Source: Burkholderiaceae bacterium
GTDB taxonomy: Bacteria; Pseudomonadota; Gammaproteobacteria; Burkholderiales; Burkholderiaceae_C
Direction: 5' to 3'
DNA length: 64,000 nucleotides
Assembly: GCA_023150375.1 (NCBI GenBank)
Contig: JAKLLA010000021.1
Coordinates: 1 to 64,000 of the forward strand
Within the stretch, counting starts at the first letter, position 1, and the number at the start of each line of letters is the position of its first letter. The notes beneath the pieces were generated by a model. That model was not told the origin of the DNA and ran no database searches. It saw only the letters and a list, made by a program, of their open reading frames with translations. Shown piece by piece: positions 5,672 through 57,498 of this stretch. The translations under genes were made by a program, and so were the position numbers.

Positions 5672-7225
5672 TCAGGCCGTGCGGAACACCGCCAGCGAGC
5701 TGCGCAGCGCGTGCGCCTGCTGGCGCAGCGACTCGGTGGCCGCGGCGGCCTGTTCGACCAGCGCGGCGTTCTGCTGGGTGTTGCCGTCCATGCGGCCCAC
5801 CGCCTCGCTGACCGAGGAGACACCGCGCGCCTGCTCCTCGCTGGCCTGCGCGATGGTGGTGATCAGCCCGCTGGCCGACTCGATGGCCTGCACCACCTCG
5901 CCCATGATCTGGCCGGCGGCCTGGGCCTTGTCCGAGCCGCTGCCCACCTGCTCGACCGAGTCGCCGATCAGGCTGCGGATCTCCTTGGACGAGGCGGCGC
6001 TGCGCGCGGCCAGGGCGCGCACCTCCTCGGCCACCACCGCGAAGCCGCGGCCGTGCTCGCCGGCGCGCGCGGCTTCCACCGCGGCGTTGAGGGCGAGGAT
6101 GTTGGTCTGGAAGGCCAGCGAGTCGATCACGCCGATGATGTCGCGGATGCGCAGCGCCTGCGTGGCGATCTGCTCCATCGAACTGACCGCCTGCTGCACC
6201 GCGTCACCGCCCTGGCGGGCGATCTCGGCGGCCCGCGCGGCCAGCTGCTGCGCATCGGCCGCGCTGCGGCTGCTGCCGTGCATGCGACCGCAGAGCTGCT
6301 CCATCGTCGAGGCGGCGTGCTGCAGCTCGGAAGCGGTCTGCTCGGTGCGCGTCGAGAGATTCTGGTTGCCCTGCGCGATCTCGGCGCTGGCGCCCTCGAT
6401 CTGCTGCGCCGCGCCCTGGATCTGCCCGAGCAGGCCGCGCAGCCGCTCGGCCACCTCCTGCATCGAGGCCAGCACCTGGCCGGTCTCGTCGCGCCCGGCC
6501 ACGCGCGCCACCTGGGTGAGCTGGCCGGCGGCGATCTCGCGGGCCATCTCGACGGCGCCCTGCAGCGGGCGGCGGATCATGCCCACGCACAGCCAGGTCG
6601 TCAGCGCGGTCAACAGCAGGGCCGCGGCCAGCGTGCCCAGGGCGACCAGGTCGGCGCGCCGCGCCGCCGCGGTGGCGCCCTCGACCTCGGCCAGGCTGCG
6701 CCGGTCGACCTGCTCGGCCAGCCGGTCCACGGCCTGGGCCAGGCGGGCATGTTCCTCCTCGGCCGGCGTCATCATCATCGCCGCCTGCGACACCCCGGCG
6801 GACTTCATGTCCAGCGCGTCGCGGGCGGATTGGGAAAAGCGTTCCAGCGACTGGCGGATCTGCGCGTACAGCGCCCGGTCGTCCGGGTGCGCCTGCGCGG
6901 CCAGCGTCTCGACGTGGCTGCGCAGCGCGGTGAGTTCGGCCTGGATGGCCCGGTCGACCGCCTCGGTGCGCTCGGCCTTCATGCCCGAGCCCTCGTAGGC
7001 CAGGCTGCGCATGACCATCCCGTCCAGGCGCACCACCCGGGTTTCCAGGTCGGCAGCGGCCTCGATGGCCGGCAGCTGGGCCTCCTGCAGCGAGCGCAGG
7101 GAGGCCAGACTGGTCTGGCCGGACAGGCGACCGACCGCGGCCACGATCAGCAGGCAGACGATCGCCAGCAGCGGCGCGATCGCGACCTTGGCTGCGATGG
7201 GCAGGTCTCGAAGGAATGTGGACAT
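5672..7225 (-). CDS. Methyl-accepting chemotaxis protein (membrane type)
   Basis: A 517-residue chemoreceptor. One transmembrane segment lies near residues 12-34, a periplasmic helical region of about 155 residues follows, and a second transmembrane segment is near 188-210. A HAMP domain comes next, then a cytoplasmic signalling hairpin with the conserved tip [20 protein letters not shown] and [15 protein letters not shown]. The periplasmic part is predicted all-helical, as in four-helix-bundle receptors. It should control CheA through CheW. The gene directly upstream encodes a secreted Cache-domain protein on the same strand (73-base gap), a plausible ligand-binding partner. No C-terminal CheR-tethering pentapeptide is seen; the end is SSLAVFRTA. 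Confidence 0.9.
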
Positions 7226-50204: not shown

Positions 50205-50220
50205 CATGGGCGCGGCACGG

Positions 50221-51522
50221 ATGTTGCGAACGCCGCGGCTCATGAAGTCGGCCCTGAGTTTCCTGATCGCCGCCAAGCGCAGCGAGATCGCCGCACTGCG
50301 CAGGCTGGTGCTCACGGGCGCCCTGGTCAATGCCATCGGCCGGCTGGTGCATGCGCTGCAGCGCGAGCGGGGTCTGTCCAACCTCTACCTGGGTTCCCAG
50401 GGGCAGCGCTGGGCCGACGAGCGCCTGCAGCAGGTGGGAAGCTGCGAGGTTCTGCAGGAGGAGGTGCTCTACGCCTTCCAGCAGTTCGACACCGACGCTG
50501 CGCCCAACGGCCACCGGGCCCGCCTGTTCGCCTGCATTGCCTATGCGATGCAGGGTCTGGCCGCGCTGCCGCAGCTGCGCGAACGGGTGCAGACCCAGGC
50601 CTGGTCGGCCCCGCGCGCCAGCGCAGCCTTCGTGCAGGTGATCCAGGCCCTGCTGGCCGTGGTCTTCGAGGCGGCCGACAGCGCCTGGGACCCGGACATT
50701 TCGCGCCATCTGGTGGCCTTCTTCCACTTCCTGCAGGGCAAGGAGTTCGCCGGACAGGAACGGGCCGCCGGCTCGGCCCTGTTCGCCAGCGGACGCGCCG
50801 ATGCCGACGGCCAGCAGCGCCTGCTGAATCTGGTCGAGTCCCAGGAGCGCTGCCTGCAGGTCTTCGGGGAAGGGGCCGGCGCGGCGCTGCAGGAGGTCTG
50901 GCGCCAGGCCCAGCGGCCCGACCACCTGGCGGCACTGGAGCGGCTGCGCCGCATCCTCTGCACCACACCGGCCGGCGCGCCGCTGGACCGGGCGTTGAGT
51001 CAGCCCTGGTTCGACGCCTGTACCGCCCGGCTGGAGGCGATGAAGCACCTCGAGGACGCGCTGGCCGCCGAACTGCAGGCGCTGTGCGGACAGCGCCTGC
51101 GCGCTGCCGAACGCGAGCTGGACGAACTCGGGCAGGTCGGCCGACAGCTGGCCCCCGAGCCGGCGAAGGGCAGTCCGGACTTCTTCGAGGAAGCGCCCGA
51201 GGCGGCGGCGCTGCCCGCCGGGCTGGGCCCCGCAGGCGTGCCCTTCGGCTCGCCGGTGGGGCAGTCGATCCTCGAGCTGGTGCGTGACCAGGCGCGCCGG
51301 CTGCAGGCGATGAGCGACGAACTCGACACCGTGCGCGCCAGCCTCACCGAGCGCAAGACCATCGAGCGCGCCAAGGGCCTGCTGATGGCGCATCGCCAGC
51401 TCAGCGAGGACCAGGCGCACAAGACGATGCGGCAGATGGCGATGAACCAGAACCGCCGGCTGGTCGAGGTGGCCGATGCGGTGCTGGCCATGGCCGCAGT
51501 ACTGCCCGCACCGGGCCGCTGA
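50221..51522 (+). CDS. nasR: Nitrate-sensing antitermination regulator (NIT-ANTAR), NasR-like
   Basis: About 433 residues. The N-terminal NIT domain spans roughly residues 25-280 and contains VHALQRERGLSNLYLGS, the motif used for nitrate/nitrite binding. The C-terminal ANTAR domain reads LTERKTIERAKGLLMAHRQLSEDQAHKTMRQMAMNQ, which binds two-hexaloop RNA. The gene lies directly upstream of the nitrate assimilation genes, whose leader has exactly such an RNA plus a terminator. Nitrate binding would allow transcription through it. The start is uncertain: ATG at 50206 is next to the acnB terminator T run, and 50221 or 50242 fits better. Confidence 0.87.
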   Translation: MLRTPRLMKSALSFLIAAKRSEIAALRRLVLTGALVNAIGRLVHALQRERGLSNLYLGSQGQRWADERLQQVGSCEVLQEEVLYAFQQFDTDAAPNGHRARLFACIAYAMQGLAALPQLRERVQTQAWSAPRASAAFVQVIQALLAVVFEAADSAWDPDISRHLVAFFHFLQGKEFAGQERAAGSALFASGRADADGQQRLLNLVESQERCLQVFGEGAGAALQEVWRQAQRPDHLAALERLRRILCTTPAGAPLDRALSQPWFDACTARLEAMKHLEDALAAELQALCGQRLRAAERELDELGQVGRQLAPEPAKGSPDFFEEAPEAAALPAGLGPAGVPFGSPVGQSILELVRDQARRLQAMSDELDTVRASLTERKTIERAKGLLMAHRQLSEDQAHKTMRQMAMNQNRRLVEVADAVLAMAAVLPAPGR

Positions 51523-51715
51523 GTGGCCGGGCCGCCGCCGGCCTGCGGCGCGCCGGGCATGCACTGACGCAGTGCCACCGGCGCCGCCCAGTCCCCAGCC
51601 CGGGCCGGCACGCACCGGCATCGGGCACCACGCCGGGCGAGTCGCCGGTCCCGGACGCCTGGTCGCCCGGGTGCGCTCCCCGGCCGGGCCCTGGTCTCCT
51701 GGTAAACCCCTGGTC
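51523..51715 (+). other. Gene-free control region upstream of the nitrate operon promoter
   Basis: No coding frame of note. It holds the NtrC-like site listed separately, and with the leader it forms the 369-base gap between nasR and nrtA. Confidence 0.6.
51561..51575. promoter_or_regulatory. Possible NtrC-binding site
   Basis: GCACT-N5-AGTGC, a perfect inverted repeat close to the NtrC consensus GCACC-N5-GGTGC. It is about 150 bases upstream of the sigma-54-like promoter, a usual distance for an enhancer. Confidence 0.45.
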
Positions 51716-51731
51716 TGGCACAGCTCCTGCT
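51716..51731 (+). promoter_or_regulatory. Sigma-54-like promoter of the nitrate operon
   Basis: TGGCACAGCTCCTGCT keeps the essential GG at -24 and GC at -12, with correct spacing. Transcription would start near 51742, just before the hexaloop leader. Confidence 0.65.
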
Positions 51732-51745
51732 AGACACTTCGCAAG

Positions 51746-51814
51746 GCATCGGGGCCAAAGGCGGTTCCGGTGCACACAGTCTTCCCGGACAAGGACAACG
51801 GCGTCCATTGCCGG
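51746..51814 (+). promoter_or_regulatory. Two-hexaloop ANTAR RNA target in the nrtA leader
   Basis: Hairpin P1 is 51746-51773: 11-bp stem with three G-U pairs and hexaloop AAAGGC (51757-51762). Hairpin P2 is 51785-51814: 11-bp stem with two one-base bulges and hexaloop AACGGC (51797-51802). Both loops have A at position 1 and G at position 4, the ANTAR signature. The linker is 11 bases. P2 overlaps the left arm of the terminator, so the two structures exclude each other. Confidence 0.82.
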
Positions 51815-51856
51815 CCTGCCACGCGCAGGTCAGGCGATGGGCGCCGTTTTCGTTTT
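51797..51856 (+). terminator. Leader terminator controlled by NasR antitermination
   Basis: AACGGCGTCCATTGCC (51797-51812) pairs with GGCGATGGGCGCCGTT (51833-51848) over 16 positions, two of them G-U. TTTTCGTTTT-type T tracts follow. An inner hairpin lies at 51813-51832 (CCTGC/GCAGG). It would stop transcription before nrtA unless P2 of the ANTAR target forms. Confidence 0.85.
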
Positions 51857-51891
51857 CGGGCCACGTCTTCGCCTCACGCCAGGAGTTGTCC

Positions 51892-53154
51892 ATGACCGCA
51901 CCGACCCGTTCTCCCGAACCCGGCAACGCCACGCGCCGCGGCCTGCTCAAGCAGGGCGCCGCCGTCGGCGCTGCCACCTTCTTCTCCACCCTGGGCCACA
52001 GCGGCGTCTGGGCCGCGGGTTCGGACAAGCCGGAGAAGACCGAAGTGAAGATCGGCTTCATCCCGCTGACCGACTGCGCCAGCGTGGTGATGGCCAGCGT
52101 GCTGGGCCTCGACAAGAAGTACGGCGTGACCATCGTGCCCAGCAAGGAGGCGAGCTGGGCCGGCGTGCGCGACAAGCTGGTCAGCGGCGAGCTGGACATG
52201 GCCCATGTGCTCTACGGCCTGGTCTACGGCGTGCACCTGGGCACGGCCGGCCCGAAGAAGGACATGGCCGTGCTGATGAACCTGAACCACAACGGCCAGG
52301 CCTTCACGCTGTCCAGGGCGCTGGCCGACAAGGGCGCGGTCGACGGCCCGTCGCTGGCCAGGTACATGGCCGCCAACAAGCGCGAGTACACCTTTGCCGG
52401 CACCTTCCCCACCGGCACCCACGCGATGTGGATGCACTACTGGCTGGCCAGCTTCGGCATCGACCCGCTGCGCGGCGCCAAGCTGATCACCGTGCCGCCG
52501 CCGCAGATGGTGGCCAACATGCGCGTGGGCAACATGGACGGCTTCTGCGTCGGCGAGCCCTGGAACCACCGCGCCATCATGGACGGCATCGGCATCACCG
52601 CCAACACCACGCAGGACCTCTGGAAGGACCATCCGGAGAAGGTGCTGGGCACCAGCGCCGAGTTCGTCAGGAAGTACCCGAACACGACGCGCGCCGTGAT
52701 GATGGCCGTGCTGGAAGCCGGCAAGTGGATCGACGCGGGCCTGCAGAACAAGCTGAAGATGGCCGAGACGGTGGCGCAGAAGGCCTACATCAACACCAGC
52801 GTCGACGCGATCAACCAGCGCATCCTGGGCCGCTACCAGAACGGCCTGGGCAAGACCTGGGACGACCCGAACCACATGAAGTTCTTCGACGACGGCCGGG
52901 TCAACTTCCCGTACCTGTCCGACGGCATGTGGTTCCTGACCCAGCACAAGCGCTGGGGCCTGCTGAAGAGCCATCCCGACTACCTGGCGGTGGCCAGGCA
53001 GGTCAACCAGGTCGATCTGTACAAGTCGGTCGCCAGCGCGATGGGCATCGGCCTGCCCAAGGAGGTGATGCGCAGCAGCAAGCTGATCGACGGCAAGGTC
53101 TGGGACGGCAAGGACCCGGCCCGGTACGCCGACTCGTTCGCCATCAAGGCCTGA
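51892..53154 (+). CDS. nrtA: Nitrate ABC transporter substrate-binding protein (NrtA/CmpA family)
   Basis: A 420-residue periplasmic or membrane-anchored protein. A twin-arginine-type signal region, NATRRGLLKQGAAVGAATFFSTLG, precedes the mature domain. The mature domain contains VKIGFIPLTDCASVVMASVLGLDKKYG, ASWAGVRDKLVSGELDMAHVLYGL and FPTGTHAMWMHYWLASFGIDPL, typical of the NrtA family. It should bind nitrate (or bicarbonate in CmpA relatives; operon context favours nitrate). AGGAG lies before the ATG at 51892. Confidence 0.92.
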   Translation: MTAPTRSPEPGNATRRGLLKQGAAVGAATFFSTLGHSGVWAAGSDKPEKTEVKIGFIPLTDCASVVMASVLGLDKKYGVTIVPSKEASWAGVRDKLVSGELDMAHVLYGLVYGVHLGTAGPKKDMAVLMNLNHNGQAFTLSRALADKGAVDGPSLARYMAANKREYTFAGTFPTGTHAMWMHYWLASFGIDPLRGAKLITVPPPQMVANMRVGNMDGFCVGEPWNHRAIMDGIGITANTTQDLWKDHPEKVLGTSAEFVRKYPNTTRAVMMAVLEAGKWIDAGLQNKLKMAETVAQKAYINTSVDAINQRILGRYQNGLGKTWDDPNHMKFFDDGRVNFPYLSDGMWFLTQHKRWGLLKSHPDYLAVARQVNQVDLYKSVASAMGIGLPKEVMRSSKLIDGKVWDGKDPARYADSFAIKA

Positions 53155-53169
53155 GGAAAGGACGCCACC

Positions 53170-54084
53170 ATGGTTGCCGCCATCTTCCATTCGCCGATCG
53201 AGGCCGCCGCGGCCCCGGTTCCGCCGGCCGCCGCACCGGCCCCCGCCCAGCCTGCCCCGTTGGAGAGTACGCCCGCACCCGCACCGCGCCGTCCGCCGCG
53301 CGACTGGCGCGGCCTGTGGATGGCGATGCTGCCGCCCCTCTTCGGCCTGGCGCTGCTGGTGCTGGTCTGGCAGGCCATCGCCTCCACCAGCGGCAGCGGC
53401 ATTCCGAAGCCCGCCGAGACCTGGGCGCAGGCGGTGGCGGTCTTCTCCGACCCCTTCTACCGCAACGGCCCGAACGACCAGGGCATCGGCTGGAACGTGC
53501 TTTCGTCGCTGCAGCGCGTGGGCATCGGCTTCGGGCTGGCCGCGCTGGTGGGCATTCCGGCCGGCTTCGCGATCGGCCGCTCGGTGTTCCTCTCGCGCAT
53601 GTTCGACCCGCTGATCAGCCTGCTGCGCCCGGTCTCGCCGCTGGCCTGGCTGCCCATCGGCCTGCTGGTCTTCAAGGGCGCCAACCCGGCGGCGATCTGG
53701 ACGATCTTCATCTGCTCGATCTGGCCGATGATCATCAACACCGCGGTGGGCGTGCAACGCGTGCCGCAGGACTACCTGAACGTCGCACGCGTGCTCCAGC
53801 TGAGCGAGTGGAAGGTCTTCACCAGGATCCTCTTCCCCGCGGTGCTGCCCTACCTGCTGACCGGCGTGCGCCTGGCGGTGGGCACGGCCTGGCTGGTGAT
53901 CGTGGCCGCCGAGATGCTGACCGGCGGCGTGGGCATCGGCTTCTGGGTCTGGGACGAGTGGAACAACCTGAACGTCTCGTCGATCATCATCGCGATCTTC
54001 GTGATCGGAGGTGTCGGTCTGCTGCTGGAGGCCGCGCTGATCCGCCTGGCCTCGCTGTTCACCTACGAGGAGGTCAAGGCATGA
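53170..54084 (+). CDS. nrtB: Nitrate ABC transporter permease
   Basis: A 304-residue inner-membrane permease of the NrtB/SsuC type with about six transmembrane segments. The EAA-like loop is VARVLQLSEWKVFTRILFPAVLPYLLTGVRLAVG. A Pro/Ala-rich N-terminal extension precedes the first segment. Its end overlaps the ATPase start (ATGA). Confidence 0.93.
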   Translation: MVAAIFHSPIEAAAAPVPPAAAPAPAQPAPLESTPAPAPRRPPRDWRGLWMAMLPPLFGLALLVLVWQAIASTSGSGIPKPAETWAQAVAVFSDPFYRNGPNDQGIGWNVLSSLQRVGIGFGLAALVGIPAGFAIGRSVFLSRMFDPLISLLRPVSPLAWLPIGLLVFKGANPAAIWTIFICSIWPMIINTAVGVQRVPQDYLNVARVLQLSEWKVFTRILFPAVLPYLLTGVRLAVGTAWLVIVAAEMLTGGVGIGFWVWDEWNNLNVSSIIIAIFVIGGVGLLLEAALIRLASLFTYEEVKA

Positions 54085-54884
54085 GCCCCGCCAAGTACAT
54101 CGAGATCCAGGGCGTCGCCCAGACCTTCAAGACCCGGCAGGGCCTCTTTCCCGCGCTGCGCGACATTCACCTCCAGGTGGCCCAGGGCGAGTTCGTGGCG
54201 CTGATCGGCCACTCGGGCTGCGGCAAGTCCACGCTGCTGAACCTGATCGCCGGCCTGACCACGCCCACCGAGGGCGTGCTGCTGTGCGCCGACAAGGAGA
54301 TCCGGGGCCCCGGCCCCGAACGCGCGGTGGTGTTCCAGAACCACTCGCTGCTGCCCTGGCTGACCTGCTTCGAGAACATCCACCTGGCCGTCGAGCGGGT
54401 GTTCGGCGCCCGCGAAACCCGGGCGCAGCTGAAGGCACGCACCCAGGCCGCGCTGGATCTGGTCGGCCTGGGCCACGCCGCCGGCAAGCGGCCCGGCGAG
54501 ATCTCCGGCGGCATGAAGCAGCGCGTGGGCATCGCCCGGGCGCTGTCGATGCAGCCCCAGGTGCTGCTGATGGACGAGCCCTTCGGCGCCCTGGACGCGC
54601 TCACCCGCGCCAGGCTGCAGGACGAGCTGCTGGAGATCGTCGCGCAGACGAAGGCGACGGTGGTCATGGTCACGCACGACGTCGACGAGGCGGTGCTGCT
54701 GTCGGACAGGATCGTGATGATGACCAACGGCCCGGCCGCCACCATCGGCGAGGTGCTGCCGGTGGACCTGCCGCGCCCGCGCAGCCGCGTCGCGCTGGCC
54801 GACGATCCGCGCTACCAGGCCTGCCGCAAGGCGGTGATCGACTTCCTCTACACGCGGCAGCGCCACGTGGAAAAGGCCGCCTGA
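54081..54884 (+). CDS. nrtC: Nitrate ABC transporter ATP-binding protein
   Basis: A 267-residue ATPase. Walker A is GHSGCGKSTLLNLI, the signature EISGGMKQRVGIARAL, Walker B VLLMDEPFGALDALTR, and H-loop VTHDVDEAV. It powers nitrate uptake. It lacks the C-terminal NrtA-like domain of cyanobacterial NrtC, so it corresponds to NrtD in length. Confidence 0.92.
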   Translation: MSPAKYIEIQGVAQTFKTRQGLFPALRDIHLQVAQGEFVALIGHSGCGKSTLLNLIAGLTTPTEGVLLCADKEIRGPGPERAVVFQNHSLLPWLTCFENIHLAVERVFGARETRAQLKARTQAALDLVGLGHAAGKRPGEISGGMKQRVGIARALSMQPQVLLMDEPFGALDALTRARLQDELLEIVAQTKATVVMVTHDVDEAVLLSDRIVMMTNGPAATIGEVLPVDLPRPRSRVALADDPRYQACRKAVIDFLYTRQRHVEKAA

Positions 54885-54894
54885 GGAGCCGGCG

Positions 54895-57498
54895 ATGACG
54901 CAACCCACCCGTCTGGTCGTGGTCGGCAACGGCATGGTCGGCCACCGCTTCGTCGAGGAACTGCTGCAGCGCCTGCCGGACCTGCCGGCCGCAGGCCTGC
55001 AGGTCACCGTGCTCGGCGAGGAGCCGCGTGCCGCCTACGACCGTGTGCACCTGTCCGACTTCTTCGCCGGCCGCAGCGCCGAGGACCTCAGCCTGGTGCC
55101 GCCCGGCTTCTACGACCGGCCCGGCCTGAGCCTGCGGCTGGGCGCGCGCGTGCAGTCGATCGAGCGGCGCGACCGCACCCTGCGGCTGGCCGACGGCACG
55201 GCGCTGCCCTACGACCGCCTGGTGCTGGCCACCGGCTCGCTGCCCTTCGTGCCGGCCGTGCCCGGGCGTGACCGGCCGCACTGCCATGTCTACCGCACGA
55301 TCGAGGACCTGCAGGCCATGCAGGCCTCGGGCGAGGTCTCGCGCAGCGGCGTGGTGATCGGCGGTGGACTGCTCGGCCTGGAATGTGCCAAGGCACTGCG
55401 CGACATGGCGCTGACCACCCACGTGGTCGAGTTCGCGCCCCGCCTGATGGCCGTGCAGATCGACGAGGCCGGCGGCGCCCTGCTGCGCCGGCGCATCGAG
55501 GATCTGGGCGTGCAGGTGCACACCAGCCGCCAGACCCTGGAGATCACCGACGGTGCCACCGCGCGCCACCGCCTGGTCTTCAGCGACGGCAGCCACCTGG
55601 AGGCCGACCTGCTGGTCTTCTCGGCCGGCATTCGCCCGCGCGACGAGCTGGGCCGCCAGGGCCTGCTGGCGATCGGCCCGCGCGGAGGCATCGCGGTGGA
55701 CGACCACTGCCGCAGCAGCGACGCGGCCATCTACGCCATCGGCGAATGCGCGTCCTGGCGCGAGCAGCTCTTCGGCCTGGTCGCACCGGGCTACGACATG
55801 GCCCGGGTCGCCGCCGCGCAGATCGCCGGCGATGCGGCGGCCGCCTTCCAGGGCGCCGACCTGTCGACCCGGCTCAAGCTAATGGGCGTGGATGTGGCCA
55901 GCATCGGTGATGCGCAAGGCCGCACGCCGGGCTGCCGCAGCATCGCCTTCAGCGACGAGCCCAGGCAGATCTACAAGCGGCTGGTGCTCAGCGCCGACGG
56001 CAAGACCCTGCTGGGTGCGGTGCTGGTGGGCGACGCCAGCGAGTACGGCACGCTGCTGCAGTACGTGCTCAACCGCCTGGCCCTGCCGGCCGCGCCCGAG
56101 CAGCTGATCCTGCCGACGGGCGATGGGGCGCCGGCCGCGCTGGGTGTCGATGCCCTGCCCGACAGCGCCCAGATCTGCTCCTGCAACAACGTCAGCAAGG
56201 GCCAGCTGTGCGGCGCCATCGCCGACGGCGTGCACGAACTGGGGGCCCTCGAGGCCTGCACCCGCGCCGGCACCTCGTGCGGCGGCTGCGTGCCGCTGGT
56301 GCAGCAGGTGCTGAAGGCCGAGCTGAAGCGCCAGGGCGTGGCTGTCAGCAACCACCTGTGCGAGCACTTCCCGCATTCGCGCCAGGAACTGCACCACCTG
56401 GTGCGCGTGGGCGGCATCCGCAGCTTCGGCGAGCTGATCGCCCGGCATGGCCGCGGCCACGGCTGCGACATCTGCAAGCCGGCGGTCGCCAGCATCCTGG
56501 CCAGCTGCTGGAACGACTTCGTGCTGGCCCCGAAGCACCTGCCGCTGCAGGACACCAACGACCGCTTCCTGGCCAACATCCAGAAGGACGGCAGCTACTC
56601 GGTGGTGCCGCGCGTGCCGGCCGGCGAGATCACGCCGGTGCAGCTGATCACCCTCGGCCAGATCGCGCAGCGCCACCGCCTGTACACCAAGATCACCGGC
56701 GGCCAGCGCATCGACCTCTTCGGCGCGCAGGCGCACCAGCTGCCGCAGATCTGGCGCGAACTGGTCGACGCCGGCTTCGAGTCGGGCCATGCCTACGGCA
56801 AGGCGCTGCGCACGGTCAAAAGCTGCGTGGGCTCGACCTGGTGCCGCTACGGCGTGCAGGACTCGGTGGGCATGGCGCTGCGGCTGGAGCACCGCTACAA
56901 GGGCCTGCGCGCACCGCACAAGATCAAGTTCGGCGTCTCGGGCTGCACGCGCGAATGCGCCGAGGCCCAGGGCAAGGACGTCGGCGTGATCGCCACCGAG
57001 CGCGGCTGGAACCTGTACGTCTGCGGCAACGGCGGCATGAAGCCGCGCCACGCCGAACTGCTGGCCAGCGACCTCGACGAGGCCGGCCTGATCCGCGCGA
57101 TCGACCGCTTCCTGATGTTCTACATCCGCACCGCCGACCGGCTGCAGCGCACCAGCACCTGGCGCGACCAGCTGGAGGGCGGCCTGGACTACCTGAAGGA
57201 CGTGGTGATGCAGGACTCGCTGGGCATCGGCGCCGAGCTGGAGGCCGCGATGGCCCAGGTCGTCGGCACCTACGCCTGCGAGTGGAAGGTGGCCCTCGAG
57301 ACACCGGCCACGCTGCAGCAGCTGCGTACCTTCGTCAACAGCGCGGAGGGCGACCCGAACGTGGTCTTCGTCGAGGAGCGCGGCCAGCCCCGGCCGGCCA
57401 CGCCCGAGGAGAAGCGTGCCCGCCGGGCGGCCGCGGCAGCGGCGGCCCCCTCGACGTCGACCGCGACCGCACCCGCCGACCTGCCCACCCCGGCCTGA
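54895..57498 (+). CDS. nirB: Nitrite reductase (NADH) large subunit
   Basis: An 867-residue assimilatory nitrite reductase. The FAD/NAD part begins VVVGNGMVGHRFVEELL and has VVIGGGLLGLECAKAL. A BFD-like [2Fe-2S] segment, CSCNNVSKGQLCGAI...CTRAGTSCGGC, follows. The siroheme/[4Fe-4S] ligands are in SCVGSTWCRYG and KFGVSGCTRECAEAQGKDVGVIA. It reduces nitrite to ammonium with six electrons. Confidence 0.95.
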   Translation: MTQPTRLVVVGNGMVGHRFVEELLQRLPDLPAAGLQVTVLGEEPRAAYDRVHLSDFFAGRSAEDLSLVPPGFYDRPGLSLRLGARVQSIERRDRTLRLADGTALPYDRLVLATGSLPFVPAVPGRDRPHCHVYRTIEDLQAMQASGEVSRSGVVIGGGLLGLECAKALRDMALTTHVVEFAPRLMAVQIDEAGGALLRRRIEDLGVQVHTSRQTLEITDGATARHRLVFSDGSHLEADLLVFSAGIRPRDELGRQGLLAIGPRGGIAVDDHCRSSDAAIYAIGECASWREQLFGLVAPGYDMARVAAAQIAGDAAAAFQGADLSTRLKLMGVDVASIGDAQGRTPGCRSIAFSDEPRQIYKRLVLSADGKTLLGAVLVGDASEYGTLLQYVLNRLALPAAPEQLILPTGDGAPAALGVDALPDSAQICSCNNVSKGQLCGAIADGVHELGALEACTRAGTSCGGCVPLVQQVLKAELKRQGVAVSNHLCEHFPHSRQELHHLVRVGGIRSFGELIARHGRGHGCDICKPAVASILASCWNDFVLAPKHLPLQDTNDRFLANIQKDGSYSVVPRVPAGEITPVQLITLGQIAQRHRLYTKITGGQRIDLFGAQAHQLPQIWRELVDAGFESGHAYGKALRTVKSCVGSTWCRYGVQDSVGMALRLEHRYKGLRAPHKIKFGVSGCTRECAEAQGKDVGVIATERGWNLYVCGNGGMKPRHAELLASDLDEAGLIRAIDRFLMFYIRTADRLQRTSTWRDQLEGGLDYLKDVVMQDSLGIGAELEAAMAQVVGTYACEWKVALETPATLQQLRTFVNSAEGDPNVVFVEERGQPRPATPEEKRARRAAAAAAAPSTSTATAPADLPTPA

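Follow-up and report, generated by a model that had tools for sequence, protein, structure and literature searches.

Genetic organization of the locus

The stretch analysed here, referred to as the window, comprises positions 1 to 64,000 of contig JAKLLA010000021.1 from the Burkholderiaceae bacterium assembly GCA_023150375.1, a genome of 4.63 Mb that is designated G000 in the genome comparisons, with the window locus listed as L003. The leader of interest precedes nrtA, the first gene of an operon that continues with nrtB, nrtC and nirB, and the gene directly upstream of it is nasR, itself located behind acnB (Pfam). The coordinates of all features are collected in Table 1.

The open frame of nasR begins at 50206, and its start at 50242 (M-K-S) was inferred from relatives in alignment A1, which holds 10 sequences. 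The product matches the Pfam domains NIT (165 bits) and ANTAR (69.3 bits; both on 50206-51519) and resembles the NasR crystal structure PDB 4akk with an E-value of 1.1e-44 across both domains. NIT is fused to a C-terminal ANTAR domain, the architecture that defines a NasR, which bears out the earlier note's view that a NIT-ANTAR protein is encoded upstream of the leader. The arginines of the ERG and QERA motifs align with those of 4akk and do not vary among the A1 sequences; they may be the nitrate-binding arginines of NasR.

Across G000, ANTAR matches occur in two proteins, NasR and a response regulator on contig C13 (L002), the latter combining Response_reg with a C-terminal ANTAR match of 33.3 bits. 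The gene for this response regulator adjoins histidine-kinase-like frames, and similar proteins are present in five other genomes of the genus.

Table 1. Features of the nrtA locus and of related loci outside the window
Feature	Position	Strand	Basis
nasR, NIT-ANTAR protein	50242..51522	+	Pfam; PDB 4akk match; start by alignment
NtrC-like site TGCACTGACGCAGTGCC, 9/12 positions	51560..51576	+	match to NtrC consensus
NtrC-like site CGCACCGGCATCGGGCA, 9/12 positions, 105 nt before promoter	51611..51627	+	match to consensus; position common among relatives
sigma-54-type promoter (-24/-12), TGGCACAGCTCCTGC	51716..51730	+	direct reading; GG-N10-GC
predicted transcription start	51742..51744	+	promoter position, about 12 nt past the -12 GC
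P1 hairpin: 11-bp stem 51746-51756/51763-51773, hexaloop AAAGGC 51757-51762	51746..51773	+	reading, folding, covariation
P1-P2 linker, 19 nt	51774..51792	+	reading
extended P2 form	51785-51814	+	folding
P2 hairpin: GGAC 51793-51796, hexaloop AACGGC 51797-51802, GTCC 51803-51806	51793..51806	+	reading, folding
intrinsic terminator: left arm 51797-51819, right arm 51825-51848 (one bulge), U-tract TTTTCGTTTT 51847-51856	51797..51856	+	folding
nrtA, nitrate-type ABC solute-binding protein, operon gene 1	51892..53154	+	Pfam NMT1_2, 322.4 bits
nrtB, ABC permease	53170-54084	+	Pfam
nrtC, ABC ATPase	54081-54884	+	Pfam
nirB, NirB-like protein	54895-57498	+	Pfam
orphan sigma-54-type leader, G000:C33 (L098; L206)	~126230-126377	minus	promoter word, P2 14-mer, terminator
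ANTAR-PilJ genes	L173/L211 (G356), L213/L225 (G606), L215/L224 (G462), L223 (G539)		Pfam (G356, G606, G462); 90% tblastn (G539)

Architecture of the leader

In sigma-54 promoters GG and GC are separated by ten bases within a sequence resembling TGGCAC-N5-TTGC. The sequence TGGCACAGCTCCTGC fits this consensus, with a single base of TTGC deviating (CTGC). Downstream of it, both hairpins P1 and P2 present hexaloops with A at the first and G at the fourth position (A1/G4), each closed by a C:G pair, C51756-G51763 in P1 and C51796-G51803 in P2. In the terminator stem, 51797-51812 pairs with 51833-51848 (16 bp), 7 further bp stand above a one-base bulge, and the U-tract TTTTCGTTTT is broken by CG. 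The left arm begins at the P2 loop, so that P2 and the terminator are mutually exclusive in folding. The whole leader reaches a minimum free energy of -74.6 kcal/mol (z -9.1), and none of 200 shuffled sequences is equally stable. The promoter, the two hexaloop hairpins and the 16-position terminator overlapping the loop and 3' half of P2 had been read from the sequence in the earlier note; with coordinates rechecked and the leader folded as that note had proposed, all of these elements hold.

The linker between the hairpins is less clear. It had been given as 11 bases, a value that applies when P2 is extended; the raw distance is 19 nt, against 5-12 nt in the eut leaders of Enterococcus faecalis. 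In the window alone the extension of P2 through CCGG/CCGG is the more stable form (-34.0 versus -27.6 kcal/mol unextended), but an extension of at least 4 pairs occurs in 8 of 41 long-linker leaders, the window among them. The P2 hexaloop is absent from the minimum-energy fold of linker, P2 and 9 further nt in 8 of the 41 long-linker leaders. Before P2 is complete, 51779-51790 can fold into a 4-bp hairpin, GTCT-TCCC-GGAC, and across the 41 folds the linker forms at least 3 pairs in 34-35, a frequency that hardly exceeds that of shuffled linkers.

A linker hairpin acting as a conserved spacer was considered and rejected. The Fisher test on 50 linkers, which are partly redundant, gave 7e-7; after removal of redundancy the signal among 36 linkers was weak (Wilcoxon p 0.029, Fisher p 0.65), and the exterior unpaired length of 51 linkers could not be distinguished from that of shuffles (p 0.29). 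For EutV, the available text of PMC3369931 describes natural eut linkers of E. faecalis of 5-12 nt and a drastic loss of induction at 14 nt, and that of PMC8934654 reports that adding 20 nt to the linker abolished antitermination. The raw linker of 19 nt exceeds 5-12 nt and would therefore have to be shortened, by the extension of P2 or by a hairpin within the linker, neither of which is firmly supported.

Conservation and covariation among relatives

When 300 genomes of the order were searched with NasR, 13 of them, G000 included, had a match with an E-value of 1e-30 or lower, and a scan of genome contigs with NasR retained the best 80 of at least 526 relatives. The 93 listed loci (L003, the window; L004-L095) were scanned for the promoter word, two A1/G4 hexaloops and a terminator. 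The canonical arrangement was found in 79 of the 93 listed NasR loci (70 by automatic filter and 9 by hand; 85 leaders; window counted), a figure that includes repeats between collections, L005/L045 and L006/L057 bearing identical leaders. Doubtful automatic matches are those with the promoter word 91 nt (L011) or 123 nt (L076) away, and in L095 a shifted one was picked. The promoter word and A1/G4 loops were conditions of the filter, so these counts show the spread of the arrangement, not a constraint on loops or promoter. The model and protein searches did not require the promoter word.

Covariation was assessed on 38 non-redundant leaders with a P1-P2 loop distance of 38-45, excluding L073 and any second L089 leader; with the window set aside, 37 were aligned. 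In P1, 7 of 9 pairs changed on both sides and 85.6% of cells pair, and the two loop-proximal pairs never vary. Covariation of the whole P1-P2 structure was 0.394 versus 0.142 for shuffled alignments (reached by 0 of 500) and at most 0.113 for slid alignments; a simpler tally, the 9 pairs that changed on both sides, was attained by 10 of 500 shuffles. P2 is nearly invariant: three of its five pairs are fixed, one shows a single compensatory case, and in 24 of the 37 leaders the outer pair does not form. The earlier note had named a lack of compensatory conservation in the two hairpins as a refutation; such conservation is present in P1, while P2 hardly varies and is uninformative either way.

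Model R1, the covariance model built from the 37 relatives with the window absent, scores the window's leader at 66.6 bits, with an E-value (search space the window) of 4.4e-15 that is rough and to be read with the near relative L016 being part of the model. Over the 4.63-Mb genome this leader ranks first among 21 matches with E-values of 10 or less, the runner-up reaching 21.2 bits; of the two lower-scoring matches inspected, L097 is without a promoter and without a clear U-run, and L098 is the orphan leader described below. The exact P2 14-mer has two copies in G000. With one mismatch allowed, the P2 pattern occurs at 7 places, against 20 for the backward-read control, so that a near-match to P2 alone carries no meaning. 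Order-wide, R1 matches at E up to 0.01 were present in 57 of 300 genomes. Among 25 such loci (L110-L134), 18 combine the promoter word with a P2-like hairpin and a U-run, and a nitrate-type gene was recognised by eye at 11 of them; the other seven comprise four chance-like matches and three lacking the promoter word.

Several leaders in the collection carry additional elements. Variovorax loci L031 and L033 (~6393-6500) have an extra hairpin with hexaloop AACGAA between the promoter word and P1, giving three hexaloop hairpins in tandem, and in L072 and L073 the extra hairpin carries other loops by eye. In Comamonas/Diaphorobacter, second leaders with P2 loop AAAGAC are found in the nasR locus (L089 at 9874, L092 at 9898, L093 at 9663), and their P1 loops are unusual: AAGGTG in L089 and AAAGTG in both L092 and L093.

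Two Rfam families align with the window below their gathering scores, the narK RNA RF03032 at 51717-51807 (27.8 bits versus 43.2) and Pseudomonas P11, RF00625, at 51704-51845 (27.1 bits versus 70). The consensus line of each contains a GGCACA..TGC-like promoter, and that of RF03032 has hexaloop hairpins as well, which suggests that the families may represent ANTAR leaders with promoter DNA within the model. Neither reaches gathering in 13 other loci, and the assignment of narK RNA and P11 as ANTAR families was set aside as a lead. The literature search found no publication linking ANTAR, Rfam and narK, and none on the narK motif was identified by title.

NtrC-like sites upstream of the promoter

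NtrC-like sites were scored with a 12-position consensus over the 200 nt before the promoter of 85 leaders, none dropped, and compared with random stretches of the same loci. The best score averages 9.07 of 12 upstream of the leaders versus 7.80 in random stretches, and scores of at least 10 occur in 24.7% of leaders (21/85) versus 1.8% of random stretches, controls that are mostly intragenic and may differ in composition from leader upstream regions. Places scoring at least 9 number 91 in the 64-kb window, which corresponds to about 0.25 expected in the upstream stretch, versus the two seen. The scores of the window's own sites are modest, and they are only suggestive of NtrC control of its promoter.

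An orphan leader on contig C33

The second exact copy of the P2 14-mer, GGACAACGGCGTCC, belongs to an orphan leader on C33, where it is preceded by the promoter word TGGCACGGCCTATGC and a hairpin and followed by a terminator. The P1 loop of this leader is not A1/G4, and the R1 match at G000:C33:126297-126376 (17.9 bits, E 0.35) is by itself not significant. On one side lies an icmF-like gene and on the other a 212-residue frame without a Pfam match, behind which comes a gene for pantothenate kinase. Within the 3-4 kb inspected around the leader, no gene was recognisable as a nitrate gene.

A 201-base DNA query of the orphan matched 4 of 120 family genomes including its own, with a true homologue in G356 of the same genus; the other two matches are, by eye, short stretches within other sequence. 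A variant pattern, defined as the promoter word, 25-55 nt and P2, was then applied to 399 family genomes and occurred in 48, with no control matches, among them all six genomes of the genus (G000, G356, G462, G539, G606 and G664). The window's canonical leader, with a gap of 62 bases, falls outside this count. The variant P1 stem pairs in 6 of 6 genus genomes, and whole-structure covariation among these six sequences is 0.317 versus 0.137 shuffled (reached by 2 of 500), with two pairs changed on both sides, a count that 170 of 500 shuffles reach. The P1 loop is unconserved, being A1/G4 in G462 only. Outside the genus, the P1 loop appears by eye to be non-A1/G4 in G386, G618, G521, G574 and one of two variants in G376.

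A 30-base block, CTAGGTGGGACATTTTGGACAACGGCGTCC, is identical in four of the six genus genomes; the copies in G606 and G462 contain a single additional T. In an order-wide sample of 399 genomes it was found only in G000, the sole genus member sampled. G000 and G664 differ at 23% of 206 four-fold sites and group together in an IcmF tree (0.999, five taxa, unrooted). Thirty identical bases between them would be expected with a probability of about 0.00035 if unconstrained, provided that the operon was lost before the split; the block was picked after its conservation was seen, and the inference of constraint no longer holds if G000 and G664 lost the operon independently and recently, or if the other genomes gained it. 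The orphan may be a relic, a free-standing small RNA or a decoy.

Possible exchange of the sensor domain within the genus

In G356, G539 and G606 the variant leader is followed by nrtABC at the icmF locus. The arrangement in G462 is the variant leader then nrtABC, with another nrtA-like gene on the opposite side and no icmF match within the stretch. In G000 and G664, which have no nrtABC at this place, the 212-residue frame and coaX come after the variant leader, and in G356 they come behind nrtABC. The variant thus precedes nrtA in four of five sister genomes, and those four are the carriers of ANTAR-PilJ proteins.

The ANTAR-PilJ gene lies about 4 kb or less from a nirB-like gene whose product is 38-44% identical to that of the window's nirB, and the proteins bear GxxR motifs, matched by eye; such motifs are termed nitrate-binding in NarQ/NarX and chemoreceptors in the available part of PMC8199190. 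The proteins also have an N-terminal receiver-like stretch that Pfam leaves uncalled. G000 and G664 carry NIT-ANTAR proteins, 37% identical to each other. No PilJ match was found by Pfam at any ANTAR match of G000, and of the two ANTAR proteins of G664 one carries NIT and the other is a response regulator. In the nas cluster of G664 no leader passed the filter upstream of nirB; a sigma-54-like site and hairpins are visible there by eye only.

Taken together, these observations suggest that the nitrate-sensing ANTAR regulator has been swapped naturally within the genus, NIT versus PilJ, along with a swap of leader type, and ANTAR-PilJ is a possible second class of soluble nitrate-sensing antiterminator. 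In the available text of papers on ANTAR, PilJ and nitrate (PMC8199190, PMC7074706) no ANTAR-PilJ protein was found, which is not a claim that it is unpublished. A joint reading, which we put forward tentatively and consider unlikely, would treat the C33 element as a free-standing sigma-54 RNA cut off from nrtABC, with a P1 cap without ANTAR hexaloop, the conserved CTAGGTGGGACATTTT block, an exact P2 hexaloop and a terminator, maintained as a small RNA or as a decoy that might act on NasR. The variant would then define a class of ANTAR leaders with a single hexaloop, associated with another type of soluble nitrate receptor in which PilJ domains (NarX/McpN-like) replace NIT, and the leader would have outlived its operon.

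Interpretation of the nrtA leader

The nrtA leader is very probably a transcription-attenuation leader of the NasR-type ANTAR class. Its elements, the exclusive folds of P2 and terminator, the covariation of P1, the adjacent NIT-ANTAR gene and the conservation of the arrangement beside other nasR genes are directly observed, and with the domain structure, the similarity to 4akk and the A1/G4 loops they agree with the NasR-family reading of the earlier note. The response to nitrogen and nitrate, the binding of NasR and the read-through of the leader are what we infer from these features.

Under nitrogen limitation, sigma-54 RNA polymerase, presumably with NtrC, would initiate near 51742. When nitrate is absent, the terminator would fold from the P2 loop onward and transcription would halt near 51850. 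When nitrate is present, NasR from the adjacent upstream gene would bind the P1 and P2 hexaloops and stabilise P2; with P2 held by NasR the terminator would be blocked and nrtABC-nirB transcribed. A nitrate-sensing protein thus probably flips the switch of the nrtA leader.

That the leader is read by the C13 response regulator instead of NasR is conceivable given that G000 encodes two ANTAR proteins and that in every one of the five other genus genomes a similar response regulator (by eye) gives a second, weaker ANTAR match (one below the Pfam cut-off). This is nevertheless highly improbable: the ANTAR match of the C13 protein is weak, no nitrate gene was recognised by eye within 3.1 kb around its gene, and sister G356 has a C13-like protein yet lacks a strong R1 match genome-wide (best E 0.038), with no strong R1 match in the stretches fetched from the other four sisters either. 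NasR, by comparison, co-occurs with the canonical leader in the 79 listed loci described above.

Even less probable is a plain sigma-54 leader whose terminator acts constitutively or whose hairpins serve RNA processing, the hexaloops being incidental. The terminator is strong when folding alone, but P1 covaries with its closing two pairs fixed, P2 and its loop are nearly invariant, and a NIT-ANTAR gene adjoins. Attenuation through a leader peptide or a different ligand would suit the attenuator-like layout, within which a 41-residue frame runs from GTG 51770, inside the P1 stem, to about the start of nrtA. This frame shows by eye no obvious run of regulatory codons, the other ATG, GTG or TTG starts in 51735-51849 are limited to TTG 51808, which shares the frame of nrtA, and ATG 51837, which lies in the terminator arm, and no Rfam family matches at gathering score, the two best sub-threshold families aligning with promoter and hairpins; such attenuation is the least credible of the explanations weighed. 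The NasR-type attenuation leader is thus the preferred reading.

Significance and comparison with known systems

The leader belongs to the known NasR/ANTAR antitermination leaders, and this instance is new. It contributes a NasR leader that has a sigma-54-type promoter and precedes nrtABC, together with many Burkholderiales relatives and model R1, and is ordinary as a member. Greater use lies in the apparent genus-level swap and in the leader kept without its operon. According to the available portion of PMC8934654, one hexaloop suffices for ANTAR binding, though leaders need two, and the swap and orphan set offers a direct test of why this is so, a question posed in that paper.

The comparisons that follow refer to the available portions of the cited papers. 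The closest counterpart is Klebsiella oxytoca NasR/nasF, which likewise combines a NIT-ANTAR protein, a two-hexaloop RNA, an overlap of P2 with the terminator and a nitrate assimilation operon; NasR binds the nasF two-hairpin motif there, and 52% of transcripts pass the terminator with nitrate versus 5% without (PMC7496416). Unlike nasF, the operon here opens with nrtABC and nirB, and nasR lies directly upstream behind acnB. The promoter here is of sigma-54 type. The C:G closing pairs of the hexaloops agree with those in the NasR selection (PMC7496416). The dual-hexaloop RNAs of EutV and AmiR share the A1/G4 hexaloops and a mutually exclusive terminator, and the dual hexaloops and the linker length are important for EutV (PMC3369931; PMC8934654); the raw linker is longer here than in E. 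faecalis eut (PMC3369931). Nitrate-controlled ANTAR binding of a leader RNA is also found in the NasS-NasT/nasA system of Paracoccus denitrificans (PMC3795266), where a two-protein complex senses nitrate, whereas here one protein would serve as both sensor and RNA binder.
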